IMG/VR virus record: IMGVR_UViG_3300028556_000011
Location: 1 to 52,725 of that record
Direction: 5' to 3' (one strand)
Length of the DNA stretch: 52,725 nt
Source: a virus
In this document: in pieces, positions 7,368-52,725 of the stretch
How positions within the stretch are numbered: position 1 is the stretch's first letter
How the letters are laid out: each line of letters begins with the position of its first letter
The notes under the pieces: generated by a model
Databases searched by the model: none
Told to the model about the DNA's origin: nothing
The model's input: only the letters and a program-made list of their open reading frames with translations
Program-made: the position numbers and the translations under genes

Positions 7368-9257
7368 TTGGCGATCAGCCTCAGAGCCGGCCGCTCACCC
7401 GCCCGCCGCGCCCGCCCGTCGTTCGCTGCCTCCGGCGTCCGAATCGACCCCGAAGGCCAACCCCCGTCCGTAGACGCCGCCGCCTCCCAGCGGCTCCTCC
7501 TCCAGGCATGGCAGTATCAGTCGTTCCGCTACTACAACGACATCGGTGAGATCCACTACGCCTCCCAGTTCTACGCCCGCTCGCTCCAGAACCTCCGGAT
7601 CTACGTCGGCCGGAAAGACGCCGCCGGCGAGATCGAAGAGGTAGACAACAGCCCGCAGGCCGAGGAGATCCTCGACGACGTCCAGGACCCCGGCGGCGGA
7701 CGCGCCGGGATGCTCCGCGCCTACGGCCAGCTGAAATGGCTGATCGGTGAGGGCTACATGATCGTCACCCCGTCCGACGGCGAGGGGGAGCGGAACAAGT
7801 GGGAGTTCGTCTCCCCCGCCGAGCTGATCGTCCTGAACGGCGCGCTGCTCCGGCAGCAGGCGCCCGGGCTGCCGCAGCGGCCGTTGCGGTACGCCGACGA
7901 CGGAAACTATGAGCCGGAGGAGCCGGTCACCGCCGTCGTTTACCGCTGGTGGCAGCCTCACCCGATGTTCTCGGCGCAGGCGGACGCGCCGATGCGCGGC
8001 GTGTTGCTTCTCTGCGACGAGCTGGAGCGGCTGACCGCAGCGGTGCGGGCCCGTTCCGTCTCCCGGATGGCGGGGCCGGGGATCCTGCTGGTGCCGGACG
8101 AGATAAGCCAGCCGCCCCCCGAGCCGGTCGGGGACGAGGCGCCGCAGGAGGACATCTTCCTTCGCGACCTGACCGAGGCTGCTGTCGCGCCGATCACCGA
8201 CCCGGGTACCGCCTCAGCCGTCTTCCCGGCACTGGTGCGCGGCGCCGCCGAGTACCTGAAAGAGATGCGGATGCTCCAGATCCACAATCCGCTCGAGACG
8301 TACCCGGAGGAGAATCTCCGCACCGAGCTGATCAGGCGGATCGCGATCAGCCTCGACTTCCCGCCCGAGGTGCTGCTCGGTGTTAGCGACGTGAACCACT
8401 GGAACGCCTGGCAGATCGACGAGCAAACCTGGAAGACCCATTTGCAGCCGGTCGCGCAGGCGTTCTGCGAGGACCTCACCGCGAGCTACTTCAAGCCTGC
8501 GTGCCGCGACGCCGGGATCGACGGCTGGGAGGATCTGTGCGTCTGGTACGACGCCTCCGAGATCATCAACCATCCCGACCGGACCGCGGACGCGAAGGAT
8601 CTATGGGATCGCGGAGCGATCAGCCTCGAGACGCTAAGGGAGGTCGCCGGGTTCGACGACGACGACGCCCCTTCGGAGGAGGAGCGCGCGGAACGGATCG
8701 GGATCGCTACCCGCGACTCGTCGCTCGCCTGGTACGGGATCCCGACGATCCGCGGCGGAAACATCGAACCGGCGCCCGGCGAGGTCGAGTCGGCCACCGG
8801 GACGGAAGCCGCTCCCGGGGCGCCCACACCGCCGCCGGCGGCTACCGGCGCGGAGGTAGCGAAGGTTCCGCCCGCCCCGGACGGCGCGGTGACGGCGGCC
8901 GGGAATCTCTCGGAGGCGGTCGCGTTGACCGTCGACCGTTGCCGCGAGCTCGCCGGCTCCCGGTTGCGGACCCGGATTACGCGGGCGCCCGAGGACACGC
9001 GCTGCTCGGAATGCGCGGACGCGATCCGCGACGTCCCGAACGGCCTCGTCGCCGCCGCGCTGGCCGCCCCGGCGGCGGGGCTCGAGTTGCCGACGCCGCG
9101 GGAGTTGGTCGCGGGCGGCGCGTCGCTGCTACGGGAGTTCGCGGTGCGCCGCGGCATGGACGCCGACCAGGCAGCTTTGCTCGCGGAGCAGGTGGAGCGC
9201 CACGCCGCGTTGACGCTGTTCGACGAGCGGCCGCCGCCGATGAAGGGCAGACGGTGA
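7368..9257 (+). CDS. Portal protein
   Basis: The 629-residue protein is called the dodecameric portal from its size, the run of head genes after it and typical features: FRYYNDIGEIHYASQFYARS near the N-terminus, an alpha/beta core with a WEFVSPAELIVLNG strand, then ETYPEENLRTELIRRIAISLDFPPEVLLG, the conserved stem/wing helix of actinophage portals. The C-terminal 200 residues are Ala/Pro-rich with a CSECADAI pair. TTG at 7368 is the only in-frame start near the previous stop; the first 25 residues are basic. Confidence 0.85.
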   Translation: MAISLRAGRSPARRARPSFAASGVRIDPEGQPPSVDAAASQRLLLQAWQYQSFRYYNDIGEIHYASQFYARSLQNLRIYVGRKDAAGEIEEVDNSPQAEEILDDVQDPGGGRAGMLRAYGQLKWLIGEGYMIVTPSDGEGERNKWEFVSPAELIVLNGALLRQQAPGLPQRPLRYADDGNYEPEEPVTAVVYRWWQPHPMFSAQADAPMRGVLLLCDELERLTAAVRARSVSRMAGPGILLVPDEISQPPPEPVGDEAPQEDIFLRDLTEAAVAPITDPGTASAVFPALVRGAAEYLKEMRMLQIHNPLETYPEENLRTELIRRIAISLDFPPEVLLGVSDVNHWNAWQIDEQTWKTHLQPVAQAFCEDLTASYFKPACRDAGIDGWEDLCVWYDASEIINHPDRTADAKDLWDRGAISLETLREVAGFDDDDAPSEEERAERIGIATRDSSLAWYGIPTIRGGNIEPAPGEVESATGTEAAPGAPTPPPAATGAEVAKVPPAPDGAVTAAGNLSEAVALTVDRCRELAGSRLRTRITRAPEDTRCSECADAIRDVPNGLVAAALAAPAAGLELPTPRELVAGGASLLREFAVRRGMDADQAALLAEQVERHAALTLFDERPPPMKGRR

Positions 9258-9475
9258 GTACGGCGGAGGCGGAGCGGATCCAGGCGTTCATCGTGACGGC
9301 GCCGTGGCAGCGGACGTCGCGGGGTTTGATGGCGACGGTGTGGCTGCGCGACGAGGAGATCACGCCGGAGTGTATGCCGCACGGCGTCCGGGTTGATTCG
9401 GTGATGTGGTGGCGGCGGGCGCCGAACGGGCTGGTGCCGGTCAGGGTCGTGCGACGGAAGGGAGGGAAGCGATGA
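9254..9475 (+). CDS. Small head-operon protein (73 aa)
   Basis: GTG at 9254 overlaps the portal stop. A compact, Trp-containing, basic protein (VMWWRR, VRVVRRKGGKR end) with no recognised family. Coupling to portal on one side and the structural gene on the other supports it. Confidence 0.55.
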   Translation: MSTAEAERIQAFIVTAPWQRTSRGLMATVWLRDEEITPECMPHGVRVDSVMWWRRAPNGLVPVRVVRRKGGKR

Positions 9476-10116
9476 GCTGGTTCCGGCAGTATCTGACGGC
9501 GTTCCGTAACGATGGAGTGCCGAGCGACGGGCTGTTCGAGAAGGCTGATGGGACGGTGTGGCTGCGGAACCCGGACGGGTCGGAGACGCAGGTCGGGAGT
9601 GGCGGCTCGCAGCCCGGTGTTCCCGTCGTCAAGAGTTTCGCCTTCGCCTATAACACGCCCGACATTCTCACGGGACTTGACTTCTACACGCCGGTTGTCG
9701 GCGAGATCCTGCTCGACGCCTGGGTGTCCGTACTCACCGGCTGGGGCGTCAAGGGCAGCGCGATCATCGACATCGGCACCGACTGGACTGGAGGGAAAGG
9801 CATGTTCGCCGCCGGTGACGTAGGTGCCGGGATCAGCGCCAACGCGACGGACAGCAACTACAACTTCGGTGCCGGTGACATCCTCAAGGGCAGCTTCTCC
9901 GGGAATGTCAACTGGCCGTTGTCTGAGATGAACGTGCTATTCGATTCGATGACTCCGGCGACGGTTGCCGCGCGGTTCGTTCCGGCCAAGTTCACCACCA
10001 CCTCACCGTTGCAGGTGGTTGCCAACGACACCGGCGCCCCCGGCGGATCGGACACCGGAGCGACCGACGGATCGGCCGTTGTCTACCTCGTGACGGTGAT
10101 CCCGGTTGCGCTGTGA
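9472..10116 (+). CDS. Putative virion structural protein (214 aa)
   Basis: ATG 9472 overlaps the upstream stop; GGAAGGGAGGGAAG precedes it. The first 45 residues (FEKADGTVWLRNPDGSETQVG) look like the N-terminus of phage decoration or fibre proteins; the rest is Gly/Thr/Val-rich beta sequence typical of a jelly roll. A head-decoration or fibre role is inferred from position between portal and MuF genes. Confidence 0.55.
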   Translation: MSWFRQYLTAFRNDGVPSDGLFEKADGTVWLRNPDGSETQVGSGGSQPGVPVVKSFAFAYNTPDILTGLDFYTPVVGEILLDAWVSVLTGWGVKGSAIIDIGTDWTGGKGMFAAGDVGAGISANATDSNYNFGAGDILKGSFSGNVNWPLSEMNVLFDSMTPATVAARFVPAKFTTTSPLQVVANDTGAPGGSDTGATDGSAVVYLVTVIPVAL

Positions 10117-10374: not shown

Positions 10375-13278
10375 GTGACCGTCACCGCCCTCAACAAAGT
10401 CGACGCGCAAGCCGCCGCCGACCGCCACGAGCAGCAGCTCGCCGACGCCTACCAACAGGTACTCGCCGCCGCCGGCCGCACCGCCGCCCACCGCTTCCGC
10501 CAAACCGCACCCATCACCGCAGCCGCGACGCCGAAAGACCCGAAGCAGCCGAACTGGACGCCACCGAACATCGACGAGCTCGTCAACCTCGAACAGATCG
10601 CCGCCCAAACCGCGAAGAAGACCGCGCCGATCCACCGGAAAGCGCTCGGCAGCGTCGGCGACGCCTACGCGGCCGCCGGGATCAGCTTCGACGTCACGAA
10701 CCCGCTCGCGCTCACGCTGCTCGGCCAGATCGGCGGACGCTCCGGCGATGTCGCCAAATCGGTGCGCGACGACCTCGCGAAAATCATCGGCGACGCCTAC
10801 ACGCAGGGGCTCTCCGTGAACAAGACCGCCGAGCAGATCGTCACGCTCTCCGACCAGTTCTCCCAGGCGCAAAGCAAGATGCTGGCGCGCACCGACCTGA
10901 ACGGGATCGCGAACGGCGGCTCCCACCTCGCCGCGAAGGAAGTCTTCGGTGACGGGGGCGGCTACAAGACGTGGCTGACCGCTGCCGACGACCTCGTACG
11001 GCCCACCCATGCGGACGCGGACGGGCAGACGGTGCCGATCGACGAGCAGTTCGACGTCGGCGGCGAGAGCGCCGACTACCCCGGCGACCCGCAGCTATCC
11101 GACGCCGAGGCTTGCAACTGCCGCTGCACGCTGACGTACTCGGAGACGGTCGGTGACGGCTCGAGCGCCGCCGACATTTCGGCCGCAGGTGGGCCGGACG
11201 TGAGTAACCTCGCGATGGTCGCCGTCTATCCCCATCCGAGCGAAGCCGAAGCTATCGCGCTGCCGGACGGGCATCCGCCCGAGAAGATGCACGTAACGCT
11301 CGTTTTTCTCGGTGCCGCCGATACCTTCAATCACGACGATGTACGCGCCGCGCTCGCCCAGGTAGCCAATGCGAGCGAGCCGCTCTCTGGCTCCGTCGGC
11401 GGTGTCGGACGATTCGCTACCGGACCAGATGGGGCGCCGCTCATTGCGCTCCCGTACGTGAAGGGACTCAGCGCGCTTAGGGAATCGGTCGCCTCAGCGC
11501 TCTCCGACCGGGGCATCGAATCTCCGAGTGAGCACGGATGGACGCCACATTTGACACTCGACTACACGCAGGACGACGCGATGCCGCCCACGGACTGTCT
11601 CGGAGCGCCTCTTTCGTTCTCAACGCTTTCCCTCGCGATCGCCGACCAACGACAGGACTTCCCGCTCGCTGCCACGTCCGTTTCGGCCGCAGGTGGTATA
11701 AGCATCACTAGCGAAGGAGGAGATATGGGCGAAGCGCAGATCACGATCCCGCTCACGCTCAGCGTGGGCTCCGCCACTACGAACCAGACCGGGAACCGGA
11801 GCAGCGGAGGGATCGTTCTCGCTCCGAGCATCGAGCCGAGCGTCGATCCTTTCGCGGCCCCTCCTCCCGACGACGACGCGGACGACATCGCGGTCGCGAC
11901 CTCGCACGCCTACCTCGACGACGGCAACGGCTCCTGCATGGAATGCGGCATGGGCCCGGACGCGCAGATCCACGACACGCTCGTAGCCGCCGGGGAAGTA
12001 CCCACCTTCGAGCAGTACGGATCCGCCATGAAGGCGCAGGGATACACGCCCTGGCAGACGACGCTCTGCGTCGAAGGCGTCCCGACCGTCGACAACGGTA
12101 CGAAGCGGATGCTCGCGCTCGGCGGCGGCACCTGGAAGAACCCGCCGATCCCGATCGGGATCATCTACGACTCTCCGCACGCGAGACTGGTATCGGAAGC
12201 CCCGATCTGCGCCCGCGCCGACTACGTCTGGCGCGACGGAAATGAGATCAAAGGGATGGGCGTCTTCACGCTCGACGATGTAGGACAGAAGGCCGCAACG
12301 TACGTCGGCGGTGACTTCATCACGGGTATGAGCATCGACCCGGTCGACGTGGAGTTCGAGCCGATGATGTACGCGAACGGAGCTGCCGTGTCCCTTCCCG
12401 ATGCTGTGGATCTTCCGTCTCCGACAGATCCGCTCGAGGACTACGACGTCATCAACGTCTTCAAGACGTACACGATCGCCGGCGCGACGATCTGCCCGGT
12501 CCAGGCGCTGACAGACGCGACGATCTCGCTGCTCGCTGGCGGCGACGGTCGACTCTCGAACGAGACGCGCTGGGATCTCGGCGACGCGCTCACCGCGAGC
12601 GCCGTCGAGGCGGAGCCGCCGCTGTGCCCGCCCGCCGCCTGGTTCGACGACCCGCAGCTCGACCGGCCCACCCTCGTCACCGTCACCGACGACGGCCGCG
12701 TGTTCGGCCATGTCGCGCCGTGGCGCGGCTGCCACACCGGCTACGCGGGACGCTGCGTCCCGCCGCCCCGCTCCCGCACCGGCTACGCCCACTTCCACGT
12801 CGGCCGCGTCGAAACCGCCGAAGGGGCGCTGCTCCCGATCGGGAAGCTCACCCTGGCGAGCGGCCATGCTTCGATCAACGACACGTCGGCGGCCGCACGG
12901 CGCCATTACGACAACTCGGCGGCGGTCGCCGCGTTCGTCCGCGCAGGCGAGGACGCCCACGGCATCTGGATCGCCGGCGCGCTCCGGCCCGGCGTTTCGC
13001 CGTCGGAGATCCAGGATCTGCTCGCGAACCCGCTCTCGGGCGACTGGCGTAACGGTGAGATGGTCGCCGCGCATGCGGTGCCGGTGCCGGGGTTCCCGAT
13101 CTTGCAGGCGTCGGCGATCGGGGAGGACGGCGGCGAGGAGACGGCGTTGATCCTGACATCGACGATCGGGCTGCTCGACGACGATCCCGGGCCGGTCGAT
13201 TTCGCGGTGCGGTCGCGGGTACTCGCGGCCCGGGCGCGCGGCGGCGTCGCGGCTCTGGCGGAGCTCGCCCGCTCCTAA
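10375..13278 (+). CDS. MuF head-morphogenesis / 2H phosphoesterase / capsid protease fusion
   Basis: A 967-residue three-part protein. Residues about 100-260 are a MuF (SPP1 gp7-like) domain ending in TWLTAADDLVRPTHADADGQ and CNCRCTLTY. Residues about 275-440 carry HVT (306-308) and HLT (392-394), the paired H-x-T motifs of 2H phosphoesterases (LigT-like). Residues about 451-967 resemble actinophage capsid maturation proteases: VFGHVAPW, HYDNSAAVAAF, GIWIAGALRPG and SGDWR are recognisable. The 2H segment is bounded by 16-bp direct repeats and is exactly in frame. MuF and protease act in capsid assembly; the 2H part could cleave cyclic or 2'-5' nucleotides. GTG at 10375. Confidence 0.82.
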   Translation: MTVTALNKVDAQAAADRHEQQLADAYQQVLAAAGRTAAHRFRQTAPITAAATPKDPKQPNWTPPNIDELVNLEQIAAQTAKKTAPIHRKALGSVGDAYAAAGISFDVTNPLALTLLGQIGGRSGDVAKSVRDDLAKIIGDAYTQGLSVNKTAEQIVTLSDQFSQAQSKMLARTDLNGIANGGSHLAAKEVFGDGGGYKTWLTAADDLVRPTHADADGQTVPIDEQFDVGGESADYPGDPQLSDAEACNCRCTLTYSETVGDGSSAADISAAGGPDVSNLAMVAVYPHPSEAEAIALPDGHPPEKMHVTLVFLGAADTFNHDDVRAALAQVANASEPLSGSVGGVGRFATGPDGAPLIALPYVKGLSALRESVASALSDRGIESPSEHGWTPHLTLDYTQDDAMPPTDCLGAPLSFSTLSLAIADQRQDFPLAATSVSAAGGISITSEGGDMGEAQITIPLTLSVGSATTNQTGNRSSGGIVLAPSIEPSVDPFAAPPPDDDADDIAVATSHAYLDDGNGSCMECGMGPDAQIHDTLVAAGEVPTFEQYGSAMKAQGYTPWQTTLCVEGVPTVDNGTKRMLALGGGTWKNPPIPIGIIYDSPHARLVSEAPICARADYVWRDGNEIKGMGVFTLDDVGQKAATYVGGDFITGMSIDPVDVEFEPMMYANGAAVSLPDAVDLPSPTDPLEDYDVINVFKTYTIAGATICPVQALTDATISLLAGGDGRLSNETRWDLGDALTASAVEAEPPLCPPAAWFDDPQLDRPTLVTVTDDGRVFGHVAPWRGCHTGYAGRCVPPPRSRTGYAHFHVGRVETAEGALLPIGKLTLASGHASINDTSAAARRHYDNSAAVAAFVRAGEDAHGIWIAGALRPGVSPSEIQDLLANPLSGDWRNGEMVAAHAVPVPGFPILQASAIGEDGGEETALILTSTIGLLDDDPGPVDFAVRSRVLAARARGGVAALAELARS
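11177..11696 (+). repeat. Direct repeats flanking the 2H domain
   Basis: TTTCGGCCGCAGGTGG occurs at 11177-11192 and again at 11681-11696. The offset is 504 bp (168 codons), so removing one repeat plus the 2H segment leaves the frame intact and joins MuF directly to the protease leader. Confidence 0.9.
11725..13278 (+). CDS. Capsid protease from internal start (nested)
   Basis: GAAGGAGGAGAT stands immediately before an in-frame ATG at 11725 (codon 451 of the fusion), one of the strongest ribosome sites in the window. It would release a 517-residue protein holding the CMEC-GMGPD motif, the protease-like region and the C-terminal domain, without MuF or 2H. In-frame nested head genes are known from lambda C/Nu3. 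Whether both forms are made is not shown by sequence. Confidence 0.6.
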   Translation: MGEAQITIPLTLSVGSATTNQTGNRSSGGIVLAPSIEPSVDPFAAPPPDDDADDIAVATSHAYLDDGNGSCMECGMGPDAQIHDTLVAAGEVPTFEQYGSAMKAQGYTPWQTTLCVEGVPTVDNGTKRMLALGGGTWKNPPIPIGIIYDSPHARLVSEAPICARADYVWRDGNEIKGMGVFTLDDVGQKAATYVGGDFITGMSIDPVDVEFEPMMYANGAAVSLPDAVDLPSPTDPLEDYDVINVFKTYTIAGATICPVQALTDATISLLAGGDGRLSNETRWDLGDALTASAVEAEPPLCPPAAWFDDPQLDRPTLVTVTDDGRVFGHVAPWRGCHTGYAGRCVPPPRSRTGYAHFHVGRVETAEGALLPIGKLTLASGHASINDTSAAARRHYDNSAAVAAFVRAGEDAHGIWIAGALRPGVSPSEIQDLLANPLSGDWRNGEMVAAHAVPVPGFPILQASAIGEDGGEETALILTSTIGLLDDDPGPVDFAVRSRVLAARARGGVAALAELARS

Positions 13279-13793
13279 AGGTGCTGCCAGCGGCGACGCA
13301 AGATGTCGAAGACCGCGCTCCGTTTTAGCCCCATTGCCTCGGCGATTTCAAACTGGCGCTCGCCGTCGGCGAACCTTCGCCTGACTTCCGCGACGATGGA
13401 GGCGGTGTACTTGGCATGAGGATTTCGTTCTCCGACGAGCAGACCAGCCGGAACGCCTCCTCTCGCGCGGCCTTTCCGTTTCATATCGCCGCCGTTATCG
13501 GCATGAGTGCCAATGAAGAGATGCGTGGGGCGAACGCAGATCCGATTGTCGCAATGGTGGCAGACAAGCAGGCCAGCGGGGATTTCTCCTCGCTCGAGTC
13601 TCCAAACGACACGATGAGCAAGCGCCGCTCGGTCATCTTCACCGCTCCAGATTACGCCGTAGCCAGCGCGTCCGACGGCGCCGCTCCACAGCCAGCAGTT
13701 GCCGATTGCGGAATCGGATCCAGGGATGGGCCCATTCATGTTCACCTTCTCCCAGAAGCGCTCAGAAAGAGGTCGTTTAGCCACCACCGCCAT
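13275..13793 (-). CDS. HNH homing-type endonuclease (leftward)
   Basis: A 172-residue HNH protein in reverse orientation inside the head operon. RFWEKV, CWLWSG and GYGVIW lead to CHHCDNRICVRPTHLFIGT with the HNH residues, then a C-terminal helix-turn-helix (VRRRFADGERQFEIAEAMG). It shares architecture with the gene at 5399 (RFWxKV, CDNR, GERN/GEQN, and final W-x-HL). Its stop overlaps the capsid protease stop by 4 bases. Orientation against the operon and lack of a clear ribosome site fit a mobile selfish gene. Confidence 0.85.
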   Translation of the reverse strand: MAVVAKRPLSERFWEKVNMNGPIPGSDSAIGNCWLWSGAVGRAGYGVIWSGEDDRAALAHRVVWRLERGEIPAGLLVCHHCDNRICVRPTHLFIGTHADNGGDMKRKGRARGGVPAGLLVGERNPHAKYTASIVAEVRRRFADGERQFEIAEAMGLKRSAVFDILRRRWQHL

Positions 13794-14893: not shown

Positions 14894-14927
14894 CCAAGCG
14901 AGCAACTTTCCCACTTCGCTTGGAGGA
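14894..14927 (+). promoter_or_regulatory. Capsid leader hairpin overlapping the ribosome site
   Basis: CCAAGCGA (14894-14901) pairs with TCGCTTGG (14916-14923), 14-base loop; GGAGGA (14922-14927) begins inside the right arm, 7 bases before ATG 14935. The stem could hide or stabilise the ribosome-binding site of the capsid gene. The remaining gap 14806-14893 shows only the promoter. Confidence 0.55.
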
Positions 14928-14934
14928 ACCGACT

Positions 14935-16683
14935 ATGGCACGCGCTCTCTTCCCCGAACTCCCCGATAACTTCGACGGCATCAGCGACGAAGACCTTTCC
15001 GCACTCCACGCAGACTTCGTTTCGGTCAGCGACCAGATTGCTGACGCCGCTCAGAAAGACGCCACTCCCGAGCAGTTTTCGTTCGTGGAGGGCGTCGACG
15101 ACGTTCGAGACCAGATGCTCGCAGGCGTCGAGGCCGCACTCTCGATCAAGGCCGAACTCGATGCGCGTGAGCAGTCCGCAGCAGAGCAGCGCGACGAGAT
15201 CGCCGAGCTCGCCGCGCAGCTCAAGCCGCCCGCGGTCGAGCTGGCCGCCGAAGAGTCCGAGACGGACACCGACTCGCCGGCGACCGCGGACGAGCCCGAG
15301 GCGCCAGCCGAGCTCGCCGCCGAACCCGAGACGGAGACCGTCGTCGACGAGCCGATCGCCGCAGCCGCGACCCCCGCCGCCCGGACGCGCCGCCCGCTCC
15401 CGAGGCCGTCCGCCGCGCACCAGCCGCTCCCGCACGAGCCGGAGCAGCCCACGTTTGTCGCGTCCGCCGACATCAACGGGTTCAAGTCCGGGCAGCGTCT
15501 CGAGAGCGAGCGCGACGTCCTCCGGGCGCTCGCGTCCGCGACCCAGGCCGTCGTCTCGACGCCGCCCGGGTTCCGCCAGAACGTCGTCGTCGCCTCCCTC
15601 CACACCCCCTGGCCGGAGGAGCGGCGGCTCATGGCGATCGAAGCCGACCCGGAAGGCTTCGGCAACTGGGACCGCATCCGCAACGTCACCCGCCCCAACG
15701 GCAACATCGTCGCCGCCGGCGGAGTCTGCGCACCCGTCACCCCCTACTACGGGCAGCAGTTCATCGCGACCCTCGACCGGCCCGTCCGCGACGCGATCGT
15801 CGCGTTCAACGCCGACCGCGGCGGCATCCGCTTCAACCCGCCGATCGGGATAGGCACCATCAGCGGCTCCGACGCGATCGGGATCGTCACCGAGGCCGAG
15901 GACGCCGAAGGCGGCACCTTCGCCGCCAAGTCGTGCCTCACCGTGGAGTGCGTCGCCGCGACCGAGGTCGACGTCGACATCATCTTCCACTGCGTCACCT
16001 GGTCGAACCTGACCGCCCGGACGTTCCCGGAGCGGGTCGCGCAGTTCAACGACACCGTGATGGCCGGCTGGGCCAGGCTCGCCGAAACGAACCTGCTCAA
16101 CGGGATCAAGGCCGCGTCGACGAAGGTGACGCAGGCGAACACGAACACGCAGGGCGCCACCTCGAGCCTGCTCGGCTCCGTCCTCACCGCCGCCGCCGGA
16201 CAGCGGTCGCGGCAGAGGATGCCCGCCGACGCGACGCTACGGGCGCTCTTCCCCGCCTGGTCGCGTGACCTGCTCGTCGCCGACATCGTCCGGTCGCAGT
16301 TCCAGCGGTTCGACATGAGCGAGGCCGGGCTGATCGCCCTCCTCCGCAGCTACAACGTCGAGCCGTCGTTCTACCTCGACGGCCCCTCCGACGGCACCGC
16401 CCAGGTGTTCGGCGCCCAGTCGGCCGGGGCGCTCGAAACGTTCCCGACAGATGTCCAGTGGGCGCTGTTCCCCGAGGGTAGCTTCCTCTTCCTCGACGGC
16501 GGCGTCCTCGAGCTCGGCATCGTCCGCGACAGCGTCCTCAACGCCGAAAACCAGTTCCAAATCTTCGGTGAAAGTTTCGAGAACGTTGCCTTTGTAGGCA
16601 TCGAATCACTGTGGATTACGACCGCCGTCTGCCCGAGCGGCACCGTCGCCGCACCGAAGGACAACTCGAGCTTCTGCTCGTAA
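14935..16683 (+). CDS. Major capsid protein with N-terminal scaffold-like region
   Basis: The 582-residue protein has an acidic, Glu/Ala/Pro-rich coiled N-terminus (about 1-160), resembling a fused scaffolding (delta) domain, then an HK97-type capsid core: GGVCAPVTPYYG, GIRFNPPIGIG, TEAEDAEGGTFAAKSC, and a C-terminal stretch with FPTDVQWALFPEGSFLFLDGG. The protease upstream would remove the N-terminal part. ATG 14935 is chosen over TTG 14920 because of GGAGGA at a good distance. Confidence 0.82.
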   Translation: MARALFPELPDNFDGISDEDLSALHADFVSVSDQIADAAQKDATPEQFSFVEGVDDVRDQMLAGVEAALSIKAELDAREQSAAEQRDEIAELAAQLKPPAVELAAEESETDTDSPATADEPEAPAELAAEPETETVVDEPIAAAATPAARTRRPLPRPSAAHQPLPHEPEQPTFVASADINGFKSGQRLESERDVLRALASATQAVVSTPPGFRQNVVVASLHTPWPEERRLMAIEADPEGFGNWDRIRNVTRPNGNIVAAGGVCAPVTPYYGQQFIATLDRPVRDAIVAFNADRGGIRFNPPIGIGTISGSDAIGIVTEAEDAEGGTFAAKSCLTVECVAATEVDVDIIFHCVTWSNLTARTFPERVAQFNDTVMAGWARLAETNLLNGIKAASTKVTQANTNTQGATSSLLGSVLTAAAGQRSRQRMPADATLRALFPAWSRDLLVADIVRSQFQRFDMSEAGLIALLRSYNVEPSFYLDGPSDGTAQVFGAQSAGALETFPTDVQWALFPEGSFLFLDGGVLELGIVRDSVLNAENQFQIFGESFENVAFVGIESLWITTAVCPSGTVAAPKDNSSFCS

Positions 16684-52508: not shown

Positions 52509-52725
52509 CATCGCCGTGATCGTCCCGGTGCTGAACCGGCCCCGGAACGCCGCCCCGCTCGCCGAAAGCCTCGCCGACACGACCGACCGCGCCCGCCTCC
52601 TCTTCGTCGTCTCGCTCGCCGACACGGACGAGCAGTTCGACGCCTGCGCCGCCACCGGTGCGGCGGTGCTCTCCGTCGACTGGCAACCCGGCCGGGCGGA
52701 CTACGCCAGGAAGATCCAGGCTGGC
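52501..52725 (+). CDS. Glycosyltransferase family 2 (5' part)
   Basis: GTG at 52501; ADIAVIVPVLNRPRNAAPL is the first strand and nucleotide-binding turn of a GT2 enzyme. The frame runs off the window and continues in the frame at base 2 of the left end. Compared with the left copy, two codons differ in amino acid (Lys/Arg, Val/Ala) and two are silent. Confidence 0.8.
   Translation, partial: MADIAVIVPVLNRPRNAAPLAESLADTTDRARLLFVVSLADTDEQFDACAATGAAVLSVDWQPGRADYARKIQAG
52578..52725. repeat. Terminal overlap, right copy
   Basis: Matches bases 1-148 (see left copy). Five differences are clustered in the last 22 bases. Confidence 0.9.

Follow-up and report, generated by a model that had tools for sequence, protein, structure and literature searches.

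The substrates served by the 2H fold range from RNA ends and 2'-5' RNA to cyclic nucleotides and ADP-ribose cyclic phosphate. Two cellular or viral enzymes, the E. coli RNA 2',3'-cyclic phosphodiesterase LigT/ThpR and the anti-CBASS protein Acb1 (T4, FBB1), share both the fold and the paired HxT motifs with the domain analyzed here. Fusions of 2H domains to the phage MuF minor head protein or to the portal have been described by Iyer, Burroughs and Aravind, who, in the parts of their papers drawn on here, propose that they are packaged and act on host RNA or immune nucleotides (PMC5512222, 2017; PMC9503650, 2022). The present locus likewise has 2H on MuF; unlike the MuF or portal fusions as described in those parts, its reading frame continues into a capsid protease with an internal start. 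Two proteins, gp18 of Arthrobacter phage Tank and gp11 of Streptomyces phage Asis, are likewise built as MuF, 2H, protease and C-terminal domain in this order, but their 2H domains lie elsewhere in the 2H tree and have no long flanking repeat. GenBank labels for these proteins (phages TP1604 and YDN12 were also matched) read portal protein, capsid maturation protease or MuF-like fusion, and leave the 2H domain unnamed. Thus, MuF-2H and portal-2H fusions, the idea of packaged counter-signalling and the architecture itself are already known. The present analysis adds relatives that differ by 2H at one slot, evidence that the domain was captured several times, the internal start and additional head proteins to which 2H is joined.

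The window, that is, the whole 52,725-nucleotide stretch analyzed (IMG/VR record IMGVR_UViG_3300028556_000011), has an exact 126-bp end repeat (1-126 and 52578-52703) that continues with mismatches to the end, and we therefore consider it a near-complete genome. The open reading frame at 10375-13278 was confirmed; it starts with GTG, codes for 967 residues and lies between an upstream portal gene and a downstream major capsid gene. In domain order it consists of MuF, the 2H phosphoesterase, the capsid protease core (PR) and a conserved C-terminal domain (CT). The features are as follows:

7368..9257, + strand, portal protein (phrog_776, 5e-100)
10375..13278, + strand, fusion gene with MuF, 2H, protease core and C-terminal domain (ORF list, Pfam, PHROG, HMM mapping)
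10843..11133, + strand, MuF (SPP1 gp7-like) domain, residues 157-253 in the HMM, ending in a CNCRCT motif (Pfam PF04233, HMM mapping)
11177..11192, + strand, left copy of the 16-bp direct repeat, coding for an SAAGG linker
11218..11670, + strand, 2H phosphoesterase domain, about residues 282-432 (PF13563, AlphaFold2, Foldseek)
11290..11298, + strand, catalytic motif HVT (306-308), H and T invariant in 26 relatives
11548..11556, + strand, catalytic motif HLT (392-394), H and T invariant in 26 relatives
11681..11696, + strand, right copy of the 16-bp direct repeat
11714..11727, + strand, strong Shine-Dalgarno AAGGAGGAG, then AT and an in-frame ATG (11725-11727, residue 451), the probable internal protease start
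12052..12369, + strand, capsid protease core with GxSxD, residues 560-665 (HMM mapping, alignment, fold matches)
12631..13119, + strand, conserved C-terminal domain of the protease family with HYDN and SGDWR, residues 753-915 (HMM mapping, alignment)
14920..16683, + strand, major capsid protein (phrog_777, 9e-73)

The preliminary description had placed the 2H segment within a MuF and capsid-protease protein, and this setting holds. Pfam matches Phage_Mu_F at residues 137-253 (E 2.7e-9, 38.2 bits against a cut-off of 29.6), and the domain lies near the portal gene, with one gene between. The protease part is matched by PHROG head-maturation-protease families, its GxSxD motif is invariant in the alignment of the core, and the PR-CT model (pLDDT 81) has herpesvirus assemblin (pUL26N) and T4 gp21 as its top fold matches, at E-values of only 0.02-0.03 (probability 0.97-0.99). 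The C-terminal domain shows a weak collinear likeness to the protease core and is perhaps a decayed second copy of it; a duplication of folds was considered and set aside at an hhalign probability of only 1.9%. The gene between portal and MuF (9406-10116) has no PHROG match, and in the closest relative, L004, the portal reading frame ends where MuF begins. An HNH endonuclease gene (13275-13793, - strand) directly follows the fusion gene, within the head gene cluster.

The inserted segment is probably a catalytically competent LigT-type 2H phosphoesterase, judging from its motifs and its modelled structure. Pfam assigns residues 296-403 to 2_5_RNA_ligase2 (PF13563, E 4.5e-13), and LigT_PEase is also matched. 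HVT and HLT, singled out earlier as the marks of a 2H enzyme, are indeed its tetrad: across 26 aligned viral 2H domains, about 24-36% identical to that of the window, H37, T39, H123 and T125 are invariant. Structure prediction, called for in the preliminary description, gave the duplicated 2H fold (AlphaFold2, pLDDT 91.8, pTM 0.86), and Foldseek retrieved E. coli LigT (1.4e-8) and drCPDase (2.1e-8) as the best PDB folds, ahead of Acb1 (1.1e-4). The best viral fold matches are actinophage proteins, several of them labelled 'RNA ligase'. Sequence profiles rank PH0099 and RNA 2',3'-cyclic phosphodiesterases first, with Acb1 at about 0.001-0.006. The domain differs from LigT/ThpR in being about 17% identical to it, in being part of a head protein and in scoring below the curated TIGR02258 equivalog cut-off (38.9 bits, E 7.8e-10, against 65.7). 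Acb1, for its part, does not lie within a head protein, and its Pfam family (PF23474) leaves the window domain unmatched up to E 0.1, while 16 of the 26 relatives match it weakly (best 4.3e-5). The suggested link to Acb1 thus holds for the shared fold, whereas in sequence and fold alike LigT and the RNA 2',3'-cyclic phosphodiesterases are closer. The substrate cannot be read from the sequence; signals made of cyclic or 2'-5' linked nucleotides are candidate targets, as are the ends of RNA.

A strong ribosome-binding site with an in-frame start follows MuF or 2H in approximately half of the fused genes, and in the window it comes after the 2H domain. Strong Shine-Dalgarno sequences precede in-frame ATG or GTG codons in 11 of 41 cases after MuF or 2H, compared with 11 of 609 in the remaining parts of these reading frames (Fisher 7e-9). 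This value overstates the evidence, since the sequences compared are related and the test was devised after the motif had been noticed. The protease is therefore probably also made alone. Because the internal start comes after 2H, the MuF unit ends with the 2H domain, the usual position of MuF effectors, and 2H is probably a functional part of that unit. A literature search on internal starts in MuF-protease fusions returned nothing relevant. L004 has a second variable slot past its internal start, filled by a further domain (RDTAWDAGAARKTLKGAADFAAAHFW...); the window has only linker there.

To place the locus among its relatives, profiles of MuF, 2H, PR and CT were mapped over nine annotated phage loci and about 200 others, nearly all from IMG/VR. 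The closest relative, L004 (78% identity in MuF, residues 1-252, and 74% in CT), has a 29-residue linker in place of the 2H domain, and PF13563 is matched nowhere else in its 48.9-kb contig. The same is true of L019 and L027, whose slots are without 2H and whose contigs (59.7 and 64.8 kb) have no PF13563 match elsewhere. A second pair belongs to a subclade unrelated to the window and L004: L083 with 2H and L033 without it are 67% identical on both sides of the same slot. Relatives without the segment, which the preliminary description had suggested looking for, are therefore at hand, and gain or loss of 2H at the MuF-protease slot is real. In the preferred reading, 2H is an accessory that relatives dispense with and not a head-building part. 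A search of a genome collection yielded only three relatives, one of which (L209, a Rhodococcoides prophage) has the order PR-2H-CT. A different kind of insert was observed in L022 (1654-5151), in which an intein-like sequence (NCFPGETLV...HNCRC; Pfam Intein_splicing 1.4e-7, just under the cut-off) splits the NCRC motif of MuF; its flanks are 92-93% identical to L019, the intein-free counterpart.

MuF, 2H, PR and CT occur in one frame in the window, Asis and Tank, and L083 has MuF-2H-CT. In the 2H tree these four MuF-2H proteins fail to group as a single clade (four changes, of which two or more are forced; AU p 0.036). The CT tree scatters them as well, with three or more forced changes. Because of long branches the exact number of captures is unsure; nevertheless, the trees suggest that the MuF-2H fusion probably arose several separate times. 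Other arrangements include CT followed by 2H (Zitch, Stultus), 2H-PR-CT (RubyRalph), a separate 2H gene close to MuF (Waltz), and 2H fused to the portal (L095, L098, L105, L108), to an XkdF-type protease (L102) or to a Mu-I-type protease (L101). Fusions with Nudix or histidine phosphatase domains are found as well. Several individual proteins deserve mention. A 1135-residue protein (L112, 4276-7683) has 2H at the N-terminus and an HK97 capsid domain at the end. In another (L105, 2113-5673), 2H shares the chain with a Mu-type portal and a weak ADP-ribosyltransferase-like match. In L156 (5396-8764) and L161 (5425-9126), the gene right after MuF opens with 2H, followed by a PI3/4-kinase-like or histidine-phosphatase domain.

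How the segment came to lie in the window gene is a question compatible with any function. Earlier it was proposed that the segment is gained or lost between flanking direct repeats, and the repeat pair itself is as described: TTTCGGCCGCAGGTGG occurs exactly at 11177 and 11681, 504 bp apart and thus in frame. That the segment is a cassette recombined in or out between these 16-bp repeats is a tentative possibility. It would fit the exact in-frame match at both borders, given that a pair of at least 16 bp arises in 1.45% of codon-shuffled copies of the reading frame, and removal of the 504 bp would leave a 35-residue linker, near the 29 residues of L004. On the other hand, several exact pairs of at least 16 bp (end-repeat products counted) are present in the window against 2.5 expected under its first-order Markov model, so that the repeat is locally unusual, ordinary genome-wide and picked post hoc. 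It recurs exactly in no other locus among the relatives fetched and, as a single copy, in one other viral contig; its interpretation as the end of a mobile element was rejected on this distribution. Border matches in the other MuF-2H fusions do not exceed 9 bp, with no comparable repeats. Other 2H fusions have matches of 8-10 bp or none, except one of 17 bp in Gordonia phage Stultus, which sits in an acidic low-complexity linker. A repeat-bounded deletion ranks only 408 of 3392 in matching the empty site of L004, although the linkers have diverged too far from L004 for the junction to be placed, which leaves room for such a deletion. In short, of the earlier proposal the gain or loss of the segment stands, and the repeats as its vehicle find little support.

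As to function, the reading to which we give somewhat better than even chances, based on sequence features and analogy, is that of a MuF-borne, packaged LigT-type 2H effector directed against RNA- or nucleotide-based defence. The locus has an enzyme domain fused to MuF, as in head-packaged MuF effectors of the polyvalent type, and the 2H domain was captured, it would appear, in frame at the C-terminal end of the minor head protein, with the gene continuing into the capsid protease. MuF would take the enzyme into the prohead, where the capsid protease may release it by cutting, and the enzyme would enter the next host together with the DNA. There, it might hydrolyze a 2'-5', 2',3'-cyclic or cyclic-oligonucleotide phosphodiester, with a blunted RNA- or nucleotide-based defence as the most plausible outcome. 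Packaging is probable in view of the fusion to MuF and by analogy; against delivery, a protein of such size would need cutting or unfolding to exit via the tail. The PADLOC defence library gave no match, and the papers found contain no experimental test of the packaged 2H effector idea.

Since in some relatives 2H is a separate gene or is joined to the protease and not to MuF, linkage to head genes may mean late expression instead of delivery. The enzyme could then act late in the producing cell, made with the head proteins and silencing a nucleotide alarm raised by head assembly. We regard this as fairly unlikely, yet as a rival to be taken seriously, given the reported interaction of the phage Bas13 prohead protease with a CBASS sensor (PMC12409349, in a passage citing Richmond-Buccola 2024). 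The joining of 2H to MuF, portal, protease and capsid alike is what would be expected if the timing and place of head assembly matter, and Acb1, an enzyme with base-stacking aromatics (Y12, W74, F107, W147) and a lid at its C-terminus, shows that a 2H fold is capable of such silencing (PMC9117128). Against this stand the greater closeness of the window domain to LigT than to Acb1 and the fact that no defence system is linked here to the hosts of these phages.

Healing of RNA ends, in which 2H would open the 2',3'-cyclic phosphates left by host defences that cut tRNA or mRNA and a host enzyme would then ligate, is unlikely. The nearest relatives in both sequence and fold are RNA 2',3'-cyclic phosphodiesterases, as this reading would have it. 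However, no RNA ligase family, RtcB family or tRNA was found in the window, near-complete as judged by its end repeat, which makes RNA repair by the phage itself less likely; host ligases could still serve. In addition, Iyer and co-workers never observed this kind of 2H together with RNA ligases (PMC5512222). More speculative, and quite improbable in our estimate, is a combined scheme in which head proteins trigger a nucleotide-signalling defence and phages repeatedly weld an alarm-destroying 2H to MuF, portal, protease or capsid, so that trigger and silencer would share one polypeptide at the assembly site and then be carried to the next cell. Finally, a structural or neutral passenger, the fold serving as a spacer or binding module without needed activity, would agree with the existence of relatives without 2H but is made highly improbable by the two H/T pairs, which never vary among 26 copies despite their strong divergence, and by the probable repeated origin of the fusion.

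For the preferred reading of a packaged 2H effector, this family allows clean tests: it includes paired relatives that differ by the domain at a single slot, and probably several separate captures. Laboratory hosts are named for phages that share the architecture, namely Arthrobacter phage Tank and Streptomyces phages TP1604 and Asis. Given the likely internal start, 'fusion' annotations may conceal two products of one gene.
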